Shown piece after piece: positions 18,841 to 52,685 of a DNA stretch of 64,000 nucleotides. Source of the DNA: Deferribacter desulfuricans SSM1 (GTDB lineage: Bacteria; Chrysiogenota; Deferribacteres; Deferribacterales; Deferribacteraceae). The notes beneath the pieces are model-generated. The model saw nothing but the letters and a program-made list of their open reading frames with translations, made no database searches and was not told the DNA's origin. Where the stretch lies: the NCBI RefSeq assembly GCF_000010985.1, contig NC_013939.1, forward strand, positions 1,083,501 to 1,147,500. Reading direction: 5' to 3'. A program made the translations under genes and the position numbers. Every line of letters starts with the position of its first letter. Position 1 is the stretch's first letter.

Positions 18841-20538
18841 ATGGTTTCTGCAAAGATTGGAGCGCTTTTATTAAGTGAGAATCTTATCACAGAGGAGCAA
18901 CTTGAAAAGGCTCTTGAAATTCAAAAAAAAGAAGGTGGTAGATTAGGTAGTATCCTGATTAAGTTGGGTTATGTGGATGAAAAGAAGATTGCTGAGTTTT
19001 TGAGTAAGCAGTATGGTGTTCCTTTTGTAGATTTAAAAGAGATTCAGGTTGATGACAAAATATTATCTTTGATTCCTCAAGAGATGATGCAAAAGTTTTT
19101 GGTAGTTCCTTTTGATAGAGAAGGGCAGACTTTAAAAGTGGCTATAGCTGATCCTTCAAATGTTTACGCAATGGAAGAATTAAGATTCCTAACTGGTTTT
19201 AATATTAAACCCTATGTTGCTGTTGAATCAGCTATCAGGGAATTTTTAGAAAAAAGGGGCAGTTCAGAATCAAATGTGTTAGCAGAATTTGAGGAGATGG
19301 ATTTAGAAGATTTAGAGTTTGAAGAGCTTGAGGAGGAAGAAAAAAGCGCTGAGGCATTGAAAAAAGAAGTAGAAGATACACCCGTTGTTAAATTGGTTAA
19401 TTATATACTAAATGAAGCAGTAAAACGTGGAGCATCTGATATACATGTAGAACCTTACGAAAAAGATTTTAGAGTTAGACTTAGGGTTGACGGGGTTATG
19501 CATGAATTGATACGACCCCCTAGAAAAATAAAAGATGCAGTTACTTCAAGGTTAAAAATTCTTGCAAATCTTGATATCGCAGAAAAAAGGTTACCTCAAG
19601 ATGGTAGGATTAAAATAAAACTTCAGGGTAGATCTATTGATATGAGGGTATCCACTTTGCCTGTGTTGTATGGCGAAAAAGTGGTGTTAAGGATACTGGA
19701 CAAATCTAATTTGCAATTAGATCTTGAAAAATTAGGGTTTGAAGAGAGCTCTTTGGAAAGGTTTATAAAAGCAATTGAGAGTCCATATGGTATGGTGTTG
19801 GTTACTGGGCCTACTGGTAGTGGTAAATCTACGACTCTTTATTCAGCTTTGAGTCGTTTGAATAAAGAAGAAGTAAATATAATGACTGCTGAAGATCCAG
19901 TTGAATACAATATCTTTGGTATTAATCAGGTGCAAATGAAAGAGGAGATTGGATTAAATTTTGCGGCAGCTTTGAGAAGTTTTTTGAGGCAAGACCCGGA
20001 TATTATAATGGTTGGTGAAATTAGAGATTATGAAACTGCTGAAATAGCTATAAAAGCTGCCCTTACCGGTCATTTAGTTTTGTCCACTTTACACACAAAT
20101 GATGCTCCCAGTACTGTTAATAGGTTATTAAATATGGGGATTGAACCATTTTTGGTTGCATCATCCACTGTGTTGATTTTGGCTCAAAGGTTAGCAAGAA
20201 AAATTTGTACCAAGTGTAAAACTGAGATTAATTTACCTAAAGAAGCTTTATTATCTGTTGGTTTTAGAAAGGATGAGATAGGTAAATTTAAAGTTTATAA
20301 AGGTAAAGGTTGTGATCATTGTAGTGGTACTGGTTATAAAGGAAGGGTTGCTCTATATGAAGTAATGGAAGTATCAGAGAATATACGAGAGCTTGTTTTA
20401 AGAGGTGCGAATGCTACTGAGATAAAGAAAATGGCAATCGATGAGGGGATGATAACTCTTAGGAGGAGTGGTTTGGAAAAAGTAAAAAAAGGTGTAACAA
20501 CCATAGAAGAGGTTGTAAGAGTAACCTTTGCAGATTAG
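18841..20538 (+). CDS. pilB: type IV pilus assembly ATPase PilB
   Basis: 565 residues. The N-terminal T2SSE_N domain (1-140) has GALLLSENLITEEQLEKAL. An acidic linker (~145-180) leads to the ATPase: Walker A GPTGSGKSTT begins at about residue 323, then LRQDPDIIMVGEIRD (Asp box and Walker B) and TGHLVLSTLHTNDAP (His box). Near the C-terminus a tetracysteine zinc site is visible (CTKC and CDHC). PilB hexamers drive pilus extension at the inner membrane. The order pilB-pilT-pilC-pilS matches pilus clusters of Geobacter-like bacteria. Confidence 0.95.
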   Translation: MVSAKIGALLLSENLITEEQLEKALEIQKKEGGRLGSILIKLGYVDEKKIAEFLSKQYGVPFVDLKEIQVDDKILSLIPQEMMQKFLVVPFDREGQTLKVAIADPSNVYAMEELRFLTGFNIKPYVAVESAIREFLEKRGSSESNVLAEFEEMDLEDLEFEELEEEEKSAEALKKEVEDTPVVKLVNYILNEAVKRGASDIHVEPYEKDFRVRLRVDGVMHELIRPPRKIKDAVTSRLKILANLDIAEKRLPQDGRIKIKLQGRSIDMRVSTLPVLYGEKVVLRILDKSNLQLDLEKLGFEESSLERFIKAIESPYGMVLVTGPTGSGKSTTLYSALSRLNKEEVNIMTAEDPVEYNIFGINQVQMKEEIGLNFAAALRSFLRQDPDIIMVGEIRDYETAEIAIKAALTGHLVLSTLHTNDAPSTVNRLLNMGIEPFLVASSTVLILAQRLARKICTKCKTEINLPKEALLSVGFRKDEIGKFKVYKGKGCDHCSGTGYKGRVALYEVMEVSENIRELVLRGANATEIKKMAIDEGMITLRRSGLEKVKKGVTTIEEVVRVTFAD

Positions 20539-45950: not shown

Positions 45951-46349
45951 TTATAGTTCTTCCAATTTTATCAATGTTTCAGCTTTGATAAACTCTAAAA
46001 TGTCCCTTATTGCATCAAATGCGGAGCTTCTATCTTTAGCTTCTGCAGCTAAAAAGAGTATTGTATCATTTTTTTCTATTACTCCCACTTGATGGACTAC
46101 AAAAAGCTTATTCAAATCAAATCTATCAAAAATTTTATGAGCATATTCATTGATTTTATTTAAAGCTTCATCATCAATAATAGTCAATTTAATTTTAGTA
46201 TAATTAGGTTTATATTTCCCAGGATATTTAGCTTTTCCATGATGGATTAAAATAGTACCTGTACTATCACTTACTGATGTATAAAACTCATTATAGAGTT
46301 TTGCTACATCAATTTTATTTTCCTCTAATCTTACTACGATATTTTTCAC
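45951..46349 (-). CDS. divergent MoaE-like protein (molybdopterin synthase large subunit family)
   Basis: 132 residues. The segment FVVHQVGVIEKNDTILFLAAEAKDRSSAFDAIRDILEFIK aligns with the MoaE core in my memory of the family, given here only for comparison of its parts: the usual HRSSAF is DRSSAF, the arginine after the first beta hairpin is Lys (GKAK), and the end is ETLIKLEEL where PFWK(K/R)E is expected. It is also about 15 residues shorter at the C-terminus. It might still convert precursor Z to molybdopterin with a MoaD, or have a changed function. It is the last gene of the manC operon, overlapping its neighbour by 4 bases. Confidence 0.7.
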   Translation of the reverse strand: MKNIVVRLEENKIDVAKLYNEFYTSVSDSTGTILIHHGKAKYPGKYKPNYTKIKLTIIDDEALNKINEYAHKIFDRFDLNKLFVVHQVGVIEKNDTILFLAAEAKDRSSAFDAIRDILEFIKAETLIKLEEL

Positions 46350-48745
46350 AAGTCACCTCCAATTAGTTGTATATCCCCTTCTTCTATTTTTACTAAAATT
46401 TGATTAAAATAATCTTTATGACTTGTATAAGAGTAGTTACCTATTTTTAGTATGACATCAGAATATAATGTTTTATTTATTTTTATAAATGGGTTATGTT
46501 TGACACTTCTTTCATAAAGACTATTTAATACTTTTTCTTTTACTAAAATATGCTTTAGTTTTTGTTCCAGTTGCTTTAACCTTTCGATATTTAGTTGATA
46601 TTCTTTATCCATAACAGCATCTTCTATATTTCCATATTTTAAAATTATTTTTTTGATAATTTCCTTTACATAAGAAAGTGAATTATTGATTTTATTTTGA
46701 GCCTCTTTGTTGCTATTTAATTTTTGTTTGATTAATGTTTTGTTTAATGGGATAATTTTTAATTGGGTTTTAGTATAGGGGATTGTGCCTGCAATATTTA
46801 CTTCTATAAAATCTGAGGCTGTAATACTACAAGTGTGTACAGTCCCAGTTTTTCTTATACATTTGAAATAGCCGTTGCACACTACTTTACTATTTCTTAC
46901 ATAATCTAACACTTCTATATCCTGCTCACAAAAAACTTCAGCATCTTGAATAAACTCCGCAGTTATTTTTTTCAAAGCTTTAATAACTGCTTTATCCTTT
47001 CCAAAAACACCTCCATTTATAACTATAGAGCCATTTTCAGAGATTATTTTACACCCTTCCACGATACCTCTTATTTTGATATCTCCGCCAGCATTAATGT
47101 CAAAACCACTCAAGACATCCCCATTTATAATAACATCCCCATGATAATTTATATTTCCGACAGAATAATCCACATTGCTATTAATAATTATAACTTCTAT
47201 CACATTTACTTGATTGCCGTTGTATGTAATTTGCCCATCTACGGTGGAAATAAGTTTTAAACCATCAGAACTTACATAAGTATTTTTACCAACTGGGAGT
47301 TTAAAATCTTTTCCTGGTTTTGCTTTTATTGGTCTTCCATATACATCTATACCATCAATCCCTTCTGTGTAAGGGATTTTAACACACAGCACATCATTCT
47401 TTTTGACAGGTTGAATAAAATTTATCTCTTTGAAATCAACTCTATCATTATCTAAGATTTTTGGTTTATAAATATTATCTTTTTCAAAAAAGTATATTAT
47501 AAAAGCATCTGTACCATTAATTGGTTTTTTACCAACCGACACAGGAATATTTAGTGATGGATTTTTTAATATTTTATCTATATTTTCCTCATTAATCCCA
47601 TAATTGATATGATTCTTTTTTAAAAAAAATATAATATCGTTTTTAGTCAGGTTATGGTATTTTGGTAAAGAAAGGTATGCTTCCAATCTATCTTGAGATA
47701 CTGTAAGTGTGATATCTTTAAATTTTGATAAATCAAACTTTTCTACTCTTTCTGATATTAAATAAGCATTCCCTTTTGAGAATTTTATAGCTTCTTCTAC
47801 TTTATTTTCATCTACTAAATAACCTTCATCAATAAGCGCTTCTAATATTTTTTCTTTAGAAATGTTAGGATCGTTAACAACTAAATAAAGTTTTTTATCA
47901 AGCTCAATTATAGTAAATGGTTCTTCTGATACAGTTATCTGTTTTTTATTAAAATCTTTTATTAAATCAATAAGCTGCTGATAATCATTTATCCTTTGAT
48001 TTGGATCGAGCTTTAAGCACTGCTTAATTGCTTCTTTTATATTGTCAGGCACATTGGAAAAAAGGCTCAAATGAGGATAATTTAACTTCTTTATATTTAA
48101 CAAAGCATTATCAGAAATCTTTTCTCCAAATGGATAAATTGTTGTAAATAGAGTAAAAATTATACATCCTAACTGAAATATATCTGATTTATATGTGGAA
48201 TGCTTCCCTGCAATTTTTTCTGGTGGGATAAATGGTGGCGGAGAAGTGCTAAATCCTAACTCAGATATTAGATTATTTTTTGTCACAACTCTATCAATAC
48301 CAAAATTGTCGATTTTCACTTTTTGATTCTTTGTCAAATAAATAGAATCTAAATACAAGTTTTTGTGTATCATATTACTTTCGTATGCAAATTGTAATGC
48401 ATCAATGATATCTAAGATAATTTCTGCCTTTTGGCTTATATCTAGTGAAGCTATTTTGTTTAAACTAAAAGAATCATGCTCCAAATCTATATATTCTTGT
48501 ATAAGGTAATAATTGTTTTCATCCTCAGCAAAATCCATAATTGTCAATACGGATGGATGTATTATTTGTCCCGCTGTTTTTACAATGTTTTCAAATCTTT
48601 TTTTTATATTTGCATCAGACTTTGGAATTTCCTTTAGAATAACTTTTCTTTGAAAATGATTGTCTTCAGCAAGAAAAGCATTGCCAGAAGGGGTGATTGC
48701 TAAAAAACTTTTTTTATCATATCTATCAAAAAAATCAGTGTTCAT
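46346..48745 (-). CDS. pseudokinase fused to FapA (DUF342) domain
   Basis: 799 residues. Residues 1-265 have a serine/threonine kinase fold: K38 in VILKEI, HKNLYLDSIYL at 127-137, DNFG at 146-149, PPEK and SDIFQLG. Four catalytic positions differ: Asp of HRD is N129, the next Lys is Tyr131, the metal Asn is Ser134 and the Asp of DFG is N147. The glycine loop is also poor. Residues ~275-720 match FapA/DUF342 (VKIPYTEGIDGIDVYGRPI, GDVIINGDVLSGFDINAGGDI), a right-handed beta-helix family. A helical part (~690-760) ends the protein. It is probably cytoplasmic; role unknown, perhaps scaffold. Confidence 0.85.
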   Translation of the reverse strand: MNTDFFDRYDKKSFLAITPSGNAFLAEDNHFQRKVILKEIPKSDANIKKRFENIVKTAGQIIHPSVLTIMDFAEDENNYYLIQEYIDLEHDSFSLNKIASLDISQKAEIILDIIDALQFAYESNMIHKNLYLDSIYLTKNQKVKIDNFGIDRVVTKNNLISELGFSTSPPPFIPPEKIAGKHSTYKSDIFQLGCIIFTLFTTIYPFGEKISDNALLNIKKLNYPHLSLFSNVPDNIKEAIKQCLKLDPNQRINDYQQLIDLIKDFNKKQITVSEEPFTIIELDKKLYLVVNDPNISKEKILEALIDEGYLVDENKVEEAIKFSKGNAYLISERVEKFDLSKFKDITLTVSQDRLEAYLSLPKYHNLTKNDIIFFLKKNHINYGINEENIDKILKNPSLNIPVSVGKKPINGTDAFIIYFFEKDNIYKPKILDNDRVDFKEINFIQPVKKNDVLCVKIPYTEGIDGIDVYGRPIKAKPGKDFKLPVGKNTYVSSDGLKLISTVDGQITYNGNQVNVIEVIIINSNVDYSVGNINYHGDVIINGDVLSGFDINAGGDIKIRGIVEGCKIISENGSIVINGGVFGKDKAVIKALKKITAEFIQDAEVFCEQDIEVLDYVRNSKVVCNGYFKCIRKTGTVHTCSITASDFIEVNIAGTIPYTKTQLKIIPLNKTLIKQKLNSNKEAQNKINNSLSYVKEIIKKIILKYGNIEDAVMDKEYQLNIERLKQLEQKLKHILVKEKVLNSLYERSVKHNPFIKINKTLYSDVILKIGNYSYTSHKDYFNQILVKIEEGDIQLIGGDL

Positions 48746-49979
48746 AAATTTTATTAAATAAAGGTAAAATTGTTTTTTTGAAAATATTGTCCCAGCTATA
48801 ATCCCTTAAAGTTTTCCTAAAAAACCTTGTTGTTTTTGTGCTTTCTGAAACTTTTATTAACTTGTCAGCAATAGAGTTTACATCTTCATCTAACTTAAAA
48901 AAAGTGGCATAATTATTTGCGATTTCTCTAAAAGGTGGAATATCTGAACAAACTATTGGTATTTTAAGCATCCCAGCCTCTAATAAAGGGATACCAAACC
49001 CTTCTTGAATACTTGGCAAAAAGAGCATATCAGCGATATGATACAAATCCCTTATTTTGACTCTATCACTTTCTATAACTTCACCTGATGGAAGAGTATA
49101 TCTTGCTAATAGAATAGCATGTTCTCTTATATTTAACTCATCTATTAAAGTGTTTAGTTTGTTAAAATAATTTACAGTATTTTTTTCATGAGGATCAAAA
49201 GCTCCTGTAATTAGAGCTTTTGCTTTTACCCCTTTATCAACTAATGCTTTTACAACTTTTATAGTTAGCTCAATATTTTTTCTTGGATGAAGTCTGGATG
49301 GCTGAACCAAAATAATATCTTGATTATATAAGTCTTCATTATTAATAATTCTTACTGTGTTTATATCCAATCTAAAAAAAGTAATAGGATCAATACCATT
49401 TTTAACAACAAATATTCTATCCTTATCTACATTCATCAATTTTGCAAATAATTTCCGTCTGCTCTCCGTGATTGTGACATAATTTATTTTTGGGTTATAT
49501 TTTTTTAGTATATCAAAAGGTGGGGTATCATAAATTTTTTCATAATCTTCATAAAAATATAATGAATCGTGTGCCCAATTTATAACCTTTATATCCATTT
49601 CATCAGCAATTTCATGAACCGCCATTGCAGCTGGTAAGTTGTATCTCATGTTTAAAATATTATGTACAATCAGGATATCAAAATTTTGTAATTCACTTTT
49701 TAGAAAAACTTTTATTCTTTCTTTTAAACTGTTAATTCTTGATATATCTTTTTTTTGTTGTAATAAATTTATTGCATCATTTACTTCATCATTGTTTGAA
49801 AGTAGCAATGGATTAATAACTACTGGAATATAATTTTCAAACTGAGCACCTTTACCAGCAATAATTTTCACATTTAGTAAGTTTCGCCTAAAAAGAAGAG
49901 CTTGCTGTTTTATAACTTCTTCAACACCACCAACTACAGGAGGGGCTGAATAATGCAGTATGGCAATATTATATTTCAT
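48735..49979 (-). CDS. glycosyltransferase family 4
   Basis: 414 residues from ATG 49,979, which overlaps the previous stop as TAATG; a GTG three codons upstream is possible. GT-B fold: an N-terminal acceptor domain with SAPPVVGGVEEVIKQQ, a linker, and the nucleotide-sugar site near LVQPSRLHPRKNIELTIKV and SIQEGFGIPLLEAGM, with the two glutamates of the E-x7-E motif. The donor may be GDP-mannose, because manC starts this operon. It is a retaining cytoplasmic transferase, acceptor unknown. It overlaps the pseudokinase gene by 11 bases. Confidence 0.88.
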   Translation of the reverse strand: MKYNIAILHYSAPPVVGGVEEVIKQQALLFRRNLLNVKIIAGKGAQFENYIPVVINPLLLSNNDEVNDAINLLQQKKDISRINSLKERIKVFLKSELQNFDILIVHNILNMRYNLPAAMAVHEIADEMDIKVINWAHDSLYFYEDYEKIYDTPPFDILKKYNPKINYVTITESRRKLFAKLMNVDKDRIFVVKNGIDPITFFRLDINTVRIINNEDLYNQDIILVQPSRLHPRKNIELTIKVVKALVDKGVKAKALITGAFDPHEKNTVNYFNKLNTLIDELNIREHAILLARYTLPSGEVIESDRVKIRDLYHIADMLFLPSIQEGFGIPLLEAGMLKIPIVCSDIPPFREIANNYATFFKLDEDVNSIADKLIKVSESTKTTRFFRKTLRDYSWDNIFKKTILPLFNKIYEH

Positions 49980-51247
49980 TATATGCACTCACTCTCCACT
50001 ATTTTTATAATGTTTAGCAGCTTTCTTTCTAAAACTTCATAAGAGAAGTGTTTTAATGCAATATTATAGTTTTTTTCAACCATCTCATTTAATCGATGCT
50101 TATCAGAAATAACTTTTAGAGCTTCATCAACTATCTTTTCTGTCACAAAACCATCAAATTTAAAAACATCAAACCCAAATGGCTCAATATCAGTTATAAA
50201 AATAGAGTATCTATTTACAATTATTGGCTTTTTAAAATAAATTGTTTCTAAAAAGGCATTTCCAAATCCTTCATAACCTGAAGGGTAGGTTATGATATCA
50301 GCACATTGATAAATATCACCGATTGTGTATTTTTTCTCACCAACTTCCCTACACCTTTCAGTTCCGATATAATCATCTATTCCAACTATCTCTACCCCTA
50401 AAAGCTTTGCATAGTTTTTTACTCTCTCATAATAGATATCACCTTCATCCCCTGATGCATGAGAAATTATTAATTTAGAGTTTTTTAGTTTCATCATATA
50501 AACAATTTCTACAGCTCTTTCTATCCATTTTCTAGGAACAATTCTTGTTGGCTGTAATACAAAGAGGTCATCTTCGCTTAAACCAGCAATCTGACGAATT
50601 TCAGAGCAAATTTTGGGGTCTATAGGTTTAGGAGGCTCTGCAAAATTGTAAACATTTGGTATAACAAAATTAGATATCCCTTTTCTAAGGCTTAGTTGCT
50701 CTGACGCTATGCTGTTTATTACTACATGTGTTATCGATTTTAAATCAGGAGGAAACCCTCTATCTAAATAGTCTTTTGCTGCATTAACAAGAAACCTATC
50801 CCTTTCCCAATAAAAATCGTGATGATGAGCAATTGTTGGAAAGCAAGTTTCTGCAATAAATTCAGTTAATGCCAATCCTAAAGGGATATTCATAGGTATA
50901 GTTAAAGCATTTTCGGGTATTAATAGATGAATATCGTATTTATTTACAAAATCATACAATCTAATCTTTAAGTATTCTTTCAATTCTGAAACTTTAAGCG
51001 ATGTTTCATGGTCTCTTTTCCTTGTTCCAAACAGCTTACTGTTTAACTCTTTTATTTCTGGATGCTGAAAGTGTGCTAAAGGTGCTATAAAAGATACATT
51101 TGGGTCTCTATCACATTCACCAGCAAAATAGAAACAGTTGTAATTGTTACGTTCTAAAACATGCGCCCATTTTTCAATTTCTAATGAAACTCCATCAGTA
51201 CCTGCAATACGTGTAGAAACAAAACCTATATTTTTAATCTTTTTCAT
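49979..51247 (-). CDS. glycosyltransferase family 4, mannosyl(glucosyl)glycerate-synthase-like
   Basis: 422 residues of GT-B fold. Conserved stretches include IAGTDGVSLEIEKWAHVLE near the start, ENALTIPMNIPLGLALTEF, TIAHHHDFYWERDRF, VLQPTRIVPRKWIERAVEI and YPSGYEGFGNAFLE. I recall this pattern from a bacterial GT4 group that includes mannosylglucosylglycerate synthases. That would give a compatible solute, but the group is broad, so the product is uncertain. It overlaps manC by 4 bases and the next transferase gene by one. Confidence 0.78.
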   Translation of the reverse strand: MKKIKNIGFVSTRIAGTDGVSLEIEKWAHVLERNNYNCFYFAGECDRDPNVSFIAPLAHFQHPEIKELNSKLFGTRKRDHETSLKVSELKEYLKIRLYDFVNKYDIHLLIPENALTIPMNIPLGLALTEFIAETCFPTIAHHHDFYWERDRFLVNAAKDYLDRGFPPDLKSITHVVINSIASEQLSLRKGISNFVIPNVYNFAEPPKPIDPKICSEIRQIAGLSEDDLFVLQPTRIVPRKWIERAVEIVYMMKLKNSKLIISHASGDEGDIYYERVKNYAKLLGVEIVGIDDYIGTERCREVGEKKYTIGDIYQCADIITYPSGYEGFGNAFLETIYFKKPIIVNRYSIFITDIEPFGFDVFKFDGFVTEKIVDEALKVISDKHRLNEMVEKNYNIALKHFSYEVLERKLLNIIKIVESECI

Positions 51248-52647
51248 TTTACTCTACCGTACATATCTTCAAATCTTACTATATCATCTTCACCCACATA
51301 TTCGCCTACTTGTACCTCTATAAACTCAAAAGGGATTTTACCTGGATTCTCTATTCTGTGTTTTGTAGCTTTTGGTATGTATACCTTTTCATTTTCACTG
51401 AGATATAAAATATCCTCACCAATCTGAACTTTAGCCGTGCCCTTTACACCTATCCAGTGCTCTGCCCTATGGTAATGAAGCTGCAAACTTAATTTTTGAC
51501 CTGGATTTACAACTATTTTTTTGACTTTATAATTTTTCCCTTCATTTAATACAGTAAAACTTCCCCATGGTCTATAAACCGTTCTATGAACTTCTGCTTC
51601 TTCTCTTTCCTCTTTTTTCAAAAGCTCAACGATATCCTTTACTTGCTGAGAATAACCTTTTTTTGCAATTAAAATAGCATCATCAGTATCAGCTATGATG
51701 AGGTCATCAACACCAACTGTGCAAAGCAATCTTTTTGAACCGAGTATTAAACTATTTTTACTATTTTTAGATACAACATTCCCTTTTATAACATTATTGT
51801 TTTCATCTTTTGGTAATACCTCATATACACTATCCCATGAGCCAATATCTGACCAGGTAATGTTTATAGGGATGACCACTACTTTTTTAGATTTTTCCAT
51901 TATGGCATAGTCAATTGAAATTTCTGGCATTTTATGAAATTCTTTTTTCATCGTTTCAAAACTGTTAGAAAATAGCTCGTATATTTCAGGCTCATATTTT
52001 TCTATCTCTTCAATAAAAGTTTCAATGGAAAACATGAAGATACCAGAATTCCAAAAGAATTTTCCACTTTCTAAATATTTTTTAGCTGTATTTAAATCTG
52101 GTTTTTCGTGGAACTGTTTTACCTCAAAAACAGTTTTTCCAGCTTCATCAAAAAGCTTTTTATTACTTTTTTCAATGTATCCATATCCAGTTTCAGGTTT
52201 AGTTGGAACAACTCCAAAAGTTACAATATAACCATCTTTTGCAAACTGTTCAGCCAATTTTACATAATCAGCAAACTCTGATGCAGGGCTAATAATATGA
52301 TCAGAAGGTGATATAAATACAGCATCATTTAATTTACCATGAAGTTTTTCCTGAATATATTTAATACCCAGAGCAATAGCAGGTGCCGTATTTTTACCAA
52401 TAGGCTCATCGATGATATGAGGGTCATCTCCAAGAATAGGCTGAACCTGCTGTTTAACAAAAAAAGAATGATCTCTATTAGTAACAATTACAATATCCTC
52501 TTTATCAGAATAATAAAGATTTCTTTTTGCGGTTTTTTGCAAAAGGGTTTCATCATCAGTTAAACTCAAAAACTGTTTTGGAAATTTCTTCCTTGATAAT
52601 GGCCAAAGCCTTGTACCACTTCCTCCAGCTAAAATTATGGAAAACAT
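51244..52647 (-). CDS. manC: mannose-1-phosphate guanylyltransferase / mannose-6-phosphate isomerase
   Basis: 467 residues from ATG 52,647, preceded by GGGAGGGG; the ORF extends 10 codons further through that site. The N-terminal nucleotidyltransferase has SIILAGGSGTRLWPLSRKKF and FPKQFLSL, and PSDHII. The C-terminal cupin isomerase (~345-465) has RPWGSFTVL, LQLHYHRAEHW and the metal ligands of the family. The protein makes GDP-mannose for the two transferases encoded next. A promoter is seen at 52,714-52,686. It heads a five-gene leftward operon. Confidence 0.95.
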   Translation of the reverse strand: MFSIILAGGSGTRLWPLSRKKFPKQFLSLTDDETLLQKTAKRNLYYSDKEDIVIVTNRDHSFFVKQQVQPILGDDPHIIDEPIGKNTAPAIALGIKYIQEKLHGKLNDAVFISPSDHIISPASEFADYVKLAEQFAKDGYIVTFGVVPTKPETGYGYIEKSNKKLFDEAGKTVFEVKQFHEKPDLNTAKKYLESGKFFWNSGIFMFSIETFIEEIEKYEPEIYELFSNSFETMKKEFHKMPEISIDYAIMEKSKKVVVIPINITWSDIGSWDSVYEVLPKDENNNVIKGNVVSKNSKNSLILGSKRLLCTVGVDDLIIADTDDAILIAKKGYSQQVKDIVELLKKEEREEAEVHRTVYRPWGSFTVLNEGKNYKVKKIVVNPGQKLSLQLHYHRAEHWIGVKGTAKVQIGEDILYLSENEKVYIPKATKHRIENPGKIPFEFIEVQVGEYVGEDDIVRFEDMYGRVK

Positions 52648-52685
52648 TATCCCCTCCCAAAAGTTAATATTTAACAACTATTTTT

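Follow-up and report, generated by a model that had tools for sequence, protein, structure and literature searches.

A Hanks-type pseudokinase fused to a FapA protein in Deferribacter desulfuricans and related bacteria

The window analysed here, a 64,000-nucleotide stretch of the Deferribacter desulfuricans SSM1 genome, encodes a protein in which a domain of the kinase fold, without its catalytic residues, is fused to a FapA protein. With moderate confidence, we propose that this protein is a flagellum-associated FapA scaffold whose dead Hanks-type kinase domain serves as a module for partner binding or signal input. If this is true, FapA gains a defined input, and FapA proteins may generally act downstream of signalling proteins. 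FapA is a widespread and poorly understood family, linked in other bacteria to the assembly of flagella at the cell pole. Bacterial pseudokinases are largely unstudied, and where their action is understood, it mostly takes place alongside active kinases. While each part of the fusion is known, its architecture, its conserved altered site and its standing as a lone pseudokinase appear to be undescribed in the literature searched, in which we found no account of a fusion between DUF342/FapA and a kinase. An earlier note on this DNA, made from the sequence alone, likewise knew of no such protein.

The fusion is one gene on the minus strand (Table 1), and the plus strand of the same interval is full of stops. 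A frameshift or assembly artefact was ruled out, as ten genomes from four families of the order carry this fusion with its frame open. The earlier note had therefore been right to treat it as a single gene and not as two genes joined by a sequencing error, and its coordinates were correct, although it had left the strand unstated. Both the FapA_N domain and the FapA solenoid score above their curated Pfam cut-offs, placing the C-terminal part in the FapA family (PF20250 and PF03961, formerly DUF342), as the note had read it. The domain order and the C-terminal helices are those of FapA proteins such as that of Vibrio vulnificus, while the pseudokinase replaces the short N-terminal region of the usual FapA. 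The fold of the FapA half is assigned by Pfam only: a full-length AlphaFold model from one sequence had a pLDDT of 36, and a sequence search found no solved FapA structure. A pairwise shuffle test gave no support for the connector as a duplicate of FapA_N. No transmembrane segment is apparent in the fusion protein, whose hydropathy is highest at helix alphaF of the kinase fold.

Table 1 Features of the fusion gene and its neighbours in the window
Feature	Coordinates	Strand	Remarks
Fusion gene, pseudokinase-FapA, 799 aa	46346..48745	-	ORF, single frame of 799 codons
Pseudokinase domain, residues 1-268 (about)	47942..48745	-	Pfam Pkinase 21-253, E 3.9e-27, 95.7 bits (cut-off 31.7); AF2 model
Degenerate catalytic loop HKNLYLDS, residues 127-134 (canonical HRDxKPEN)	48344..48367	-	
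Degenerate DFG region KIDNFG, residues 144-149	48299..48316	-	
Connector, residues 272-345	47711..47932	-	AF2 model: separate small beta-beta-alpha-alpha-beta fold (277-331)
FapA_N domain, residues 345-510	47216..47713	-	Pfam, E 1.1e-47, 162.1 bits (cut-off 27)
FapA beta-solenoid domain and C-terminal helices, residues 518-792	46370..47194	-	Pfam, E 2.1e-51, 175.6 bits (cut-off 31)
moaE (molybdopterin synthase large subunit)	45951..46349	-	Overlaps the end of the fusion gene by 4 bases
Two GT4 glycosyltransferases and mannose-1-phosphate guanylyltransferase/isomerase, upstream	48735..52677	-	Not considered part of the system

The kinase fold, which the note had recognised by its motif order, is borne out by structure prediction as well as by the Pkinase profile. 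AlphaFold2 (AF2) modelled residues 1-345 from four sequences as a two-lobed kinase fold (pLDDT 81, pTM 0.84), and a Foldseek search with this model matched protein kinases with a TM-score of about 0.8, normalised to the target kinase. The profile match and the two-lobed fold together place the domain within the Hanks-type kinase fold. It shares the whole fold, the PPE and DxxxxG motifs, helix alphaF and the C-lobe helices with Ser/Thr kinases of the PknB/PrkC type, to which its best PDB sequence match, 4eqm, belongs. However, those kinases are linked to a transmembrane segment and a PASTA part, whereas the window protein is soluble and fused to FapA, and it lacks their HRD Asp, catalytic Lys, loop Asn, DFG Asp and alphaC Glu.

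Alignment to 4eqm, a solved bacterial kinase, confirmed the residue register, so that the four changes listed in the note (N129, Y131, S134 and N147) lie exactly at the catalytic positions. All four positions are changed in each of the ten orthologues, none of which has an intact HRD or DFG motif: the HRD Asp is always Asn, the catalytic-loop Lys is Tyr, Leu or Phe, the catalytic-loop Asn is always Ser, and the DFG Asp position is occupied by Asn, His or Phe, giving NFG, NFN, HCG, NFD, HFD or FFD. The note had also taken the structural residues to be retained. PPE and DxxxxG are indeed present, but the beta3 Lys (K38) is Arg in two of the ten orthologues, the alphaC Glu is lost in all (residue 54 is Ile, Leu, Tyr, His or Phe), and only the last Gly of the Gly-rich loop is kept throughout. 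The domain thus departs from an active Hanks-type kinase at the HRD Asp, the loop Asn, the DFG Asp and the pairing of beta3 Lys with alphaC Glu. Taken with the AF2 and Foldseek results, these losses indicate a true kinase fold that lacks what ordinary phosphotransfer needs. None of the ten proteins has either metal ligand or the alphaC Glu, and most of the Gly loop is missing from each, so canonical binding of Mg-ATP is unlikely. This weakens the note's idea of a nucleotide-binding scaffold, although the domain might bind a nucleotide independently of metal.

Loss of catalysis has not been followed by decay. Six residues of the altered site (H127, N129, D133, S134, K144 and D146, the last of them one residue before the DFG Asp position) are invariant in the ten orthologues and define the signature HxN(L/I)xxDS ... 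KxD. Invariant positions are concentrated in the two altered active-site loops, where they make up 7 of 17 (hypergeometric p 0.002), as against 34 of 270 for the domain as a whole. In three pairs of sequences, Nei-Gojobori dN/dS values were 0.05, 0.04 and 0.14 for the kinase part, slightly above the 0.04, 0.03 and 0.11 of the FapA part; the value of 0.14 is rough, as synonymous sites are near saturation in this most distant pair. The dead kinase domain is therefore under purifying selection. One could argue from its several degenerate catalytic motifs that it is a neutral relic, a decaying domain carried along in the fusion without a role. However, the low dN/dS, the frame kept open in ten genomes at 35-65% identity and the invariant residues of the altered site refute such a relic, unless the domain serves only the folding of the fusion, and we regard it as the least credible account of all. 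Because selection retains the domain, its role is probably to bind or to sense, and not to catalyse.

If the module senses a ligand, the pseudokinase might bind a nucleotide such as ATP, or a metabolite, without metal or catalysis, and occupancy would switch the FapA scaffold. The six invariant residues would suit such a site, as would the basic beta3 residue kept in all ten proteins (Lys in eight, Arg in two). In addition, the third DFG position is Asp in five of the ten orthologues (L010-L014), including both that carry Arg, in parallel with the DYD pseudokinases, in which an Asp at this position is thought to pair with the beta3 Arg and so replace the alphaC Glu (PMC12599244). The window protein itself has NFG and no Asp at the third position, and the loss of the Gly loop, alphaC Glu, DFG Asp and catalytic-loop Asn from all ten proteins also counts against this reading, which we consider unlikely. 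Quite improbable, in our judgement, is a repurposed enzyme that modifies a flagellar or signalling partner by AMPylation, glutamylation or an unusual phosphotransfer. The invariant D133 and D146 adjoin the lost catalytic positions, and kinase folds with altered motifs do catalyse other reactions in SelO and SidJ; however, both of these enzymes keep the beta3 Lys and the DFG Asp (PMC12599244), while here the DFG Asp is absent from every orthologue and the Lys is Arg in two.

A review of bacterial pseudokinases describes the families ActPs1-3, GLW, CP1, DYD and DLHK, none of them reported with FapA or in Deferribacterota (PMC12599244). By these descriptions, the proteins reported here stand apart from ActPs2, CP1, DYD and DLHK, and their altered-site signature differs. 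ActPs2 comes close in its change of the HRD Asp to Asn, which all ten orthologues share, but almost all ActPs2 proteins have a beta3 Arg, and the family has a DFG deletion, a long activation-loop insertion and often a transmembrane segment, whereas here Lys is kept in eight of ten, the DFG region is present, and neither a long insertion nor a transmembrane peak is seen. DYD proteins also lack the alphaC Glu and carry a beta3 Arg, but our proteins have no DYD motif and Arg in just two of ten. Members of CP1 and DLHK are likewise soluble; CP1 is fused to a COG3899 ATPase, while only FapA domains follow the kinase domain here, and DLHK keeps the HRD Asp and loop Asn that are Asn and Ser in our set. 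GLW has that motif in place of HRD, where these proteins have HxN.

Full-length orthologues were found in 10 of 51 Deferribacterota genomes: the window genome and a congener (65% identity), three genomes of one family, four of Calditerrivibrio and one of a fourth family. Those outside the window's genus are 35-45% identical to the window protein. The carriers are some deep-branching, mostly flagellated bacteria. In a tree of 48 FapA sequences, the fused proteins form one group (support 100/100), most simply explained by one fusion event, and this group lies nearest to the stand-alone FapA paralogues of group 'b' (support 93/90), not to those of group 'a'. A scan of 84,980 genomes with exact motif patterns from the alignment of the kinase part matched Deferribacterota only, and it recovered just three of the orthologues. 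No plasmid record had one place that covered 80% of the fusion, and each match listed fell on either the kinase part or the FapA part, not on both ends. The fusion may nevertheless exist outside Deferribacterota or carry an automatic annotation.

We also considered an active Hanks kinase in the same genome as a partner. Searching the 51 genomes with the Pkinase profile revealed no second Hanks kinase above the Pfam cut-off in the ten fusion genomes, and a second kinase profile gave no further one in the window genome. The weak extra matches in Calditerrivibrio are proteins of about 560 residues that fall below the cut-off and are probably UbiB-like; five other genomes of the phylum have unrelated Hanks-type kinase matches. 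The pseudokinase is thus the only Hanks domain detected in its genome, covalently joined to a single output domain, which makes a partner Hanks kinase unlikely and the dead domain testable alone.

The genomic context of the fusion gene is a weak lead to surface motility organelles, weak because no neighbour is universal among the ten genomes. In three of them, the fusion gene is divergent from a flgB-flgC-fliE-fliF-fliG-fliH-fliI operon (FliF identified by profile, the other genes named from their sequences). A type IV pilus-like operon, with a secretin and an ATPase identified by Pfam, lies upstream in the congener, an HDOD gene is convergent to the fusion in Calditerrivibrio, and the remaining genomes have unrelated genes upstream. 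moaE is the next gene downstream in five of the ten. The earlier note had suggested that the protein could localise or regulate the glycosyltransferases encoded upstream, a role that might extend to surface polysaccharide. In the window genome, a glycosyltransferase frame overlaps the start of the fusion gene by 11 bases, so co-transcription is probable there. However, glycosyltransferases adjoin the fusion in none of the other nine genomes, the congener included, which strongly weakens this idea and leaves it very improbable. The regions upstream of the fusion differ completely between the two congeners, with glycosyltransferases and ManC in the window and the pilus-like operon in the other (L035:10127-16001), so a rearrangement or replacement has occurred. 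Elsewhere in the window, positions 18853-20526 encode a PilB-type secretion ATPase that shares 46% identity with the ATPase upstream of the congener's fusion, and a 404-residue frame has a weak FapA-solenoid match at 1083-1406 (E 7.7e-4, below the cut-off).

Across the phylum, the presence of FapA follows that of flagella, and a link of the family to flagella is better supported than the note's link to the cell surface in general. Five of the 51 genomes lack FliF: three incomplete assemblies, and G014 and G016, each 99% complete. The sole FapA of G014 and G016 is a 270-residue remnant (G014:C1:431074-431838 and G016:C3:138234-138998, E about 1e-10 to 1e-13). Among genomes more than 90% complete, G050 alone has FliF without FapA; in the incomplete assembly G029, FapA is present and FliF was not detected. 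Flagellar export genes lie close to FapA of group 'a' in G023 and begin a few kilobases from it in G017 (identities read from the sequences).

The stand-alone FapA paralogues are neighbours of signalling genes, a histidine kinase being the most consistent of these. In most sampled genomes, FapA of group 'a' is flanked by a GAF-HisKA-HATPase histidine kinase on one side and uvrA on the other, and in the window genome it overlaps the histidine kinase gene by 4 bases. The same gene order recurs across the order (L107:5945-8625, with equivalents in L109, L111, L114, L115, L118 and L120, and also in L123, L126, L128, L130, L137 and L140). In Calditerrivibrio (L156 and L157), the histidine kinase and uvrA are 4-10 bases apart with no FapA between them; this genus lacks the FapA linked to the histidine kinase and has no FapA besides the fusion. 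In the window's genus, FapA of group 'b' comes after a gene for a cNMP-binding protein; in G023, it comes after one for a sigma-54-type response regulator.

We then propose a model for the fusion as a flagellum-associated FapA scaffold. By analogy with the polar FapA of Vibrio, the scaffold would consist of FapA_N, the beta-solenoid and the C-terminal helices. The V. vulnificus protein is controlled by EIIAGlc and HubP: HubP brings it to the flagellated pole, and it binds EIIAGlc in the dephosphorylated form (PMC12918733, PMC6877527). In the fusion, a protein partner, or a small ligand, would dock on the conserved altered active-site face of the pseudokinase, and this binding would gate the recruitment or activity of the FapA part. 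The stand-alone paralogues would instead take their input from separately encoded signalling proteins, above all the translationally coupled GAF-histidine kinase. We infer the scaffold role, the gating, the identity of the ligand or partner and the polar location. A dead kinase domain as a docking module in a larger assembly is also the working principle of EssB/YukC and MviN, non-catalytic pseudokinases that act as scaffolds or docking modules (PMC12599244), although these are membrane proteins of type VII secretion and peptidoglycan synthesis, and MviN is phosphorylated by an active Hanks kinase of a kind not detected in the fusion genomes. Against the flagellar part of the model, the fusion adjoins flagellar genes in just three of the ten genomes, and G029 and G050, where FapA and FliF do not go together, also count against it.

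It is also conceivable, if rather doubtful, that the fusion arose by an exchange of inputs. The FapA proteins of the phylum would then be effectors fed by adjacent sensors, as the histidine kinase, cNMP-binding protein and response regulator beside them would suggest, and a lone Hanks domain, in genomes with no active Hanks kinase detected, would have been fused to one of them and gained a conserved new site for a ligand, becoming a sensor without catalysis. Since the fused FapA is nearest to group 'b', it is not simply a group 'a' protein with its input swapped. On the Haliovirga abyssi plasmid pHIC (Fusobacteriota; L160:1-4356), a gene for a hybrid histidine kinase lies immediately before one for FapA, and the coupling of kinases to FapA is thus not limited to Deferribacterota.
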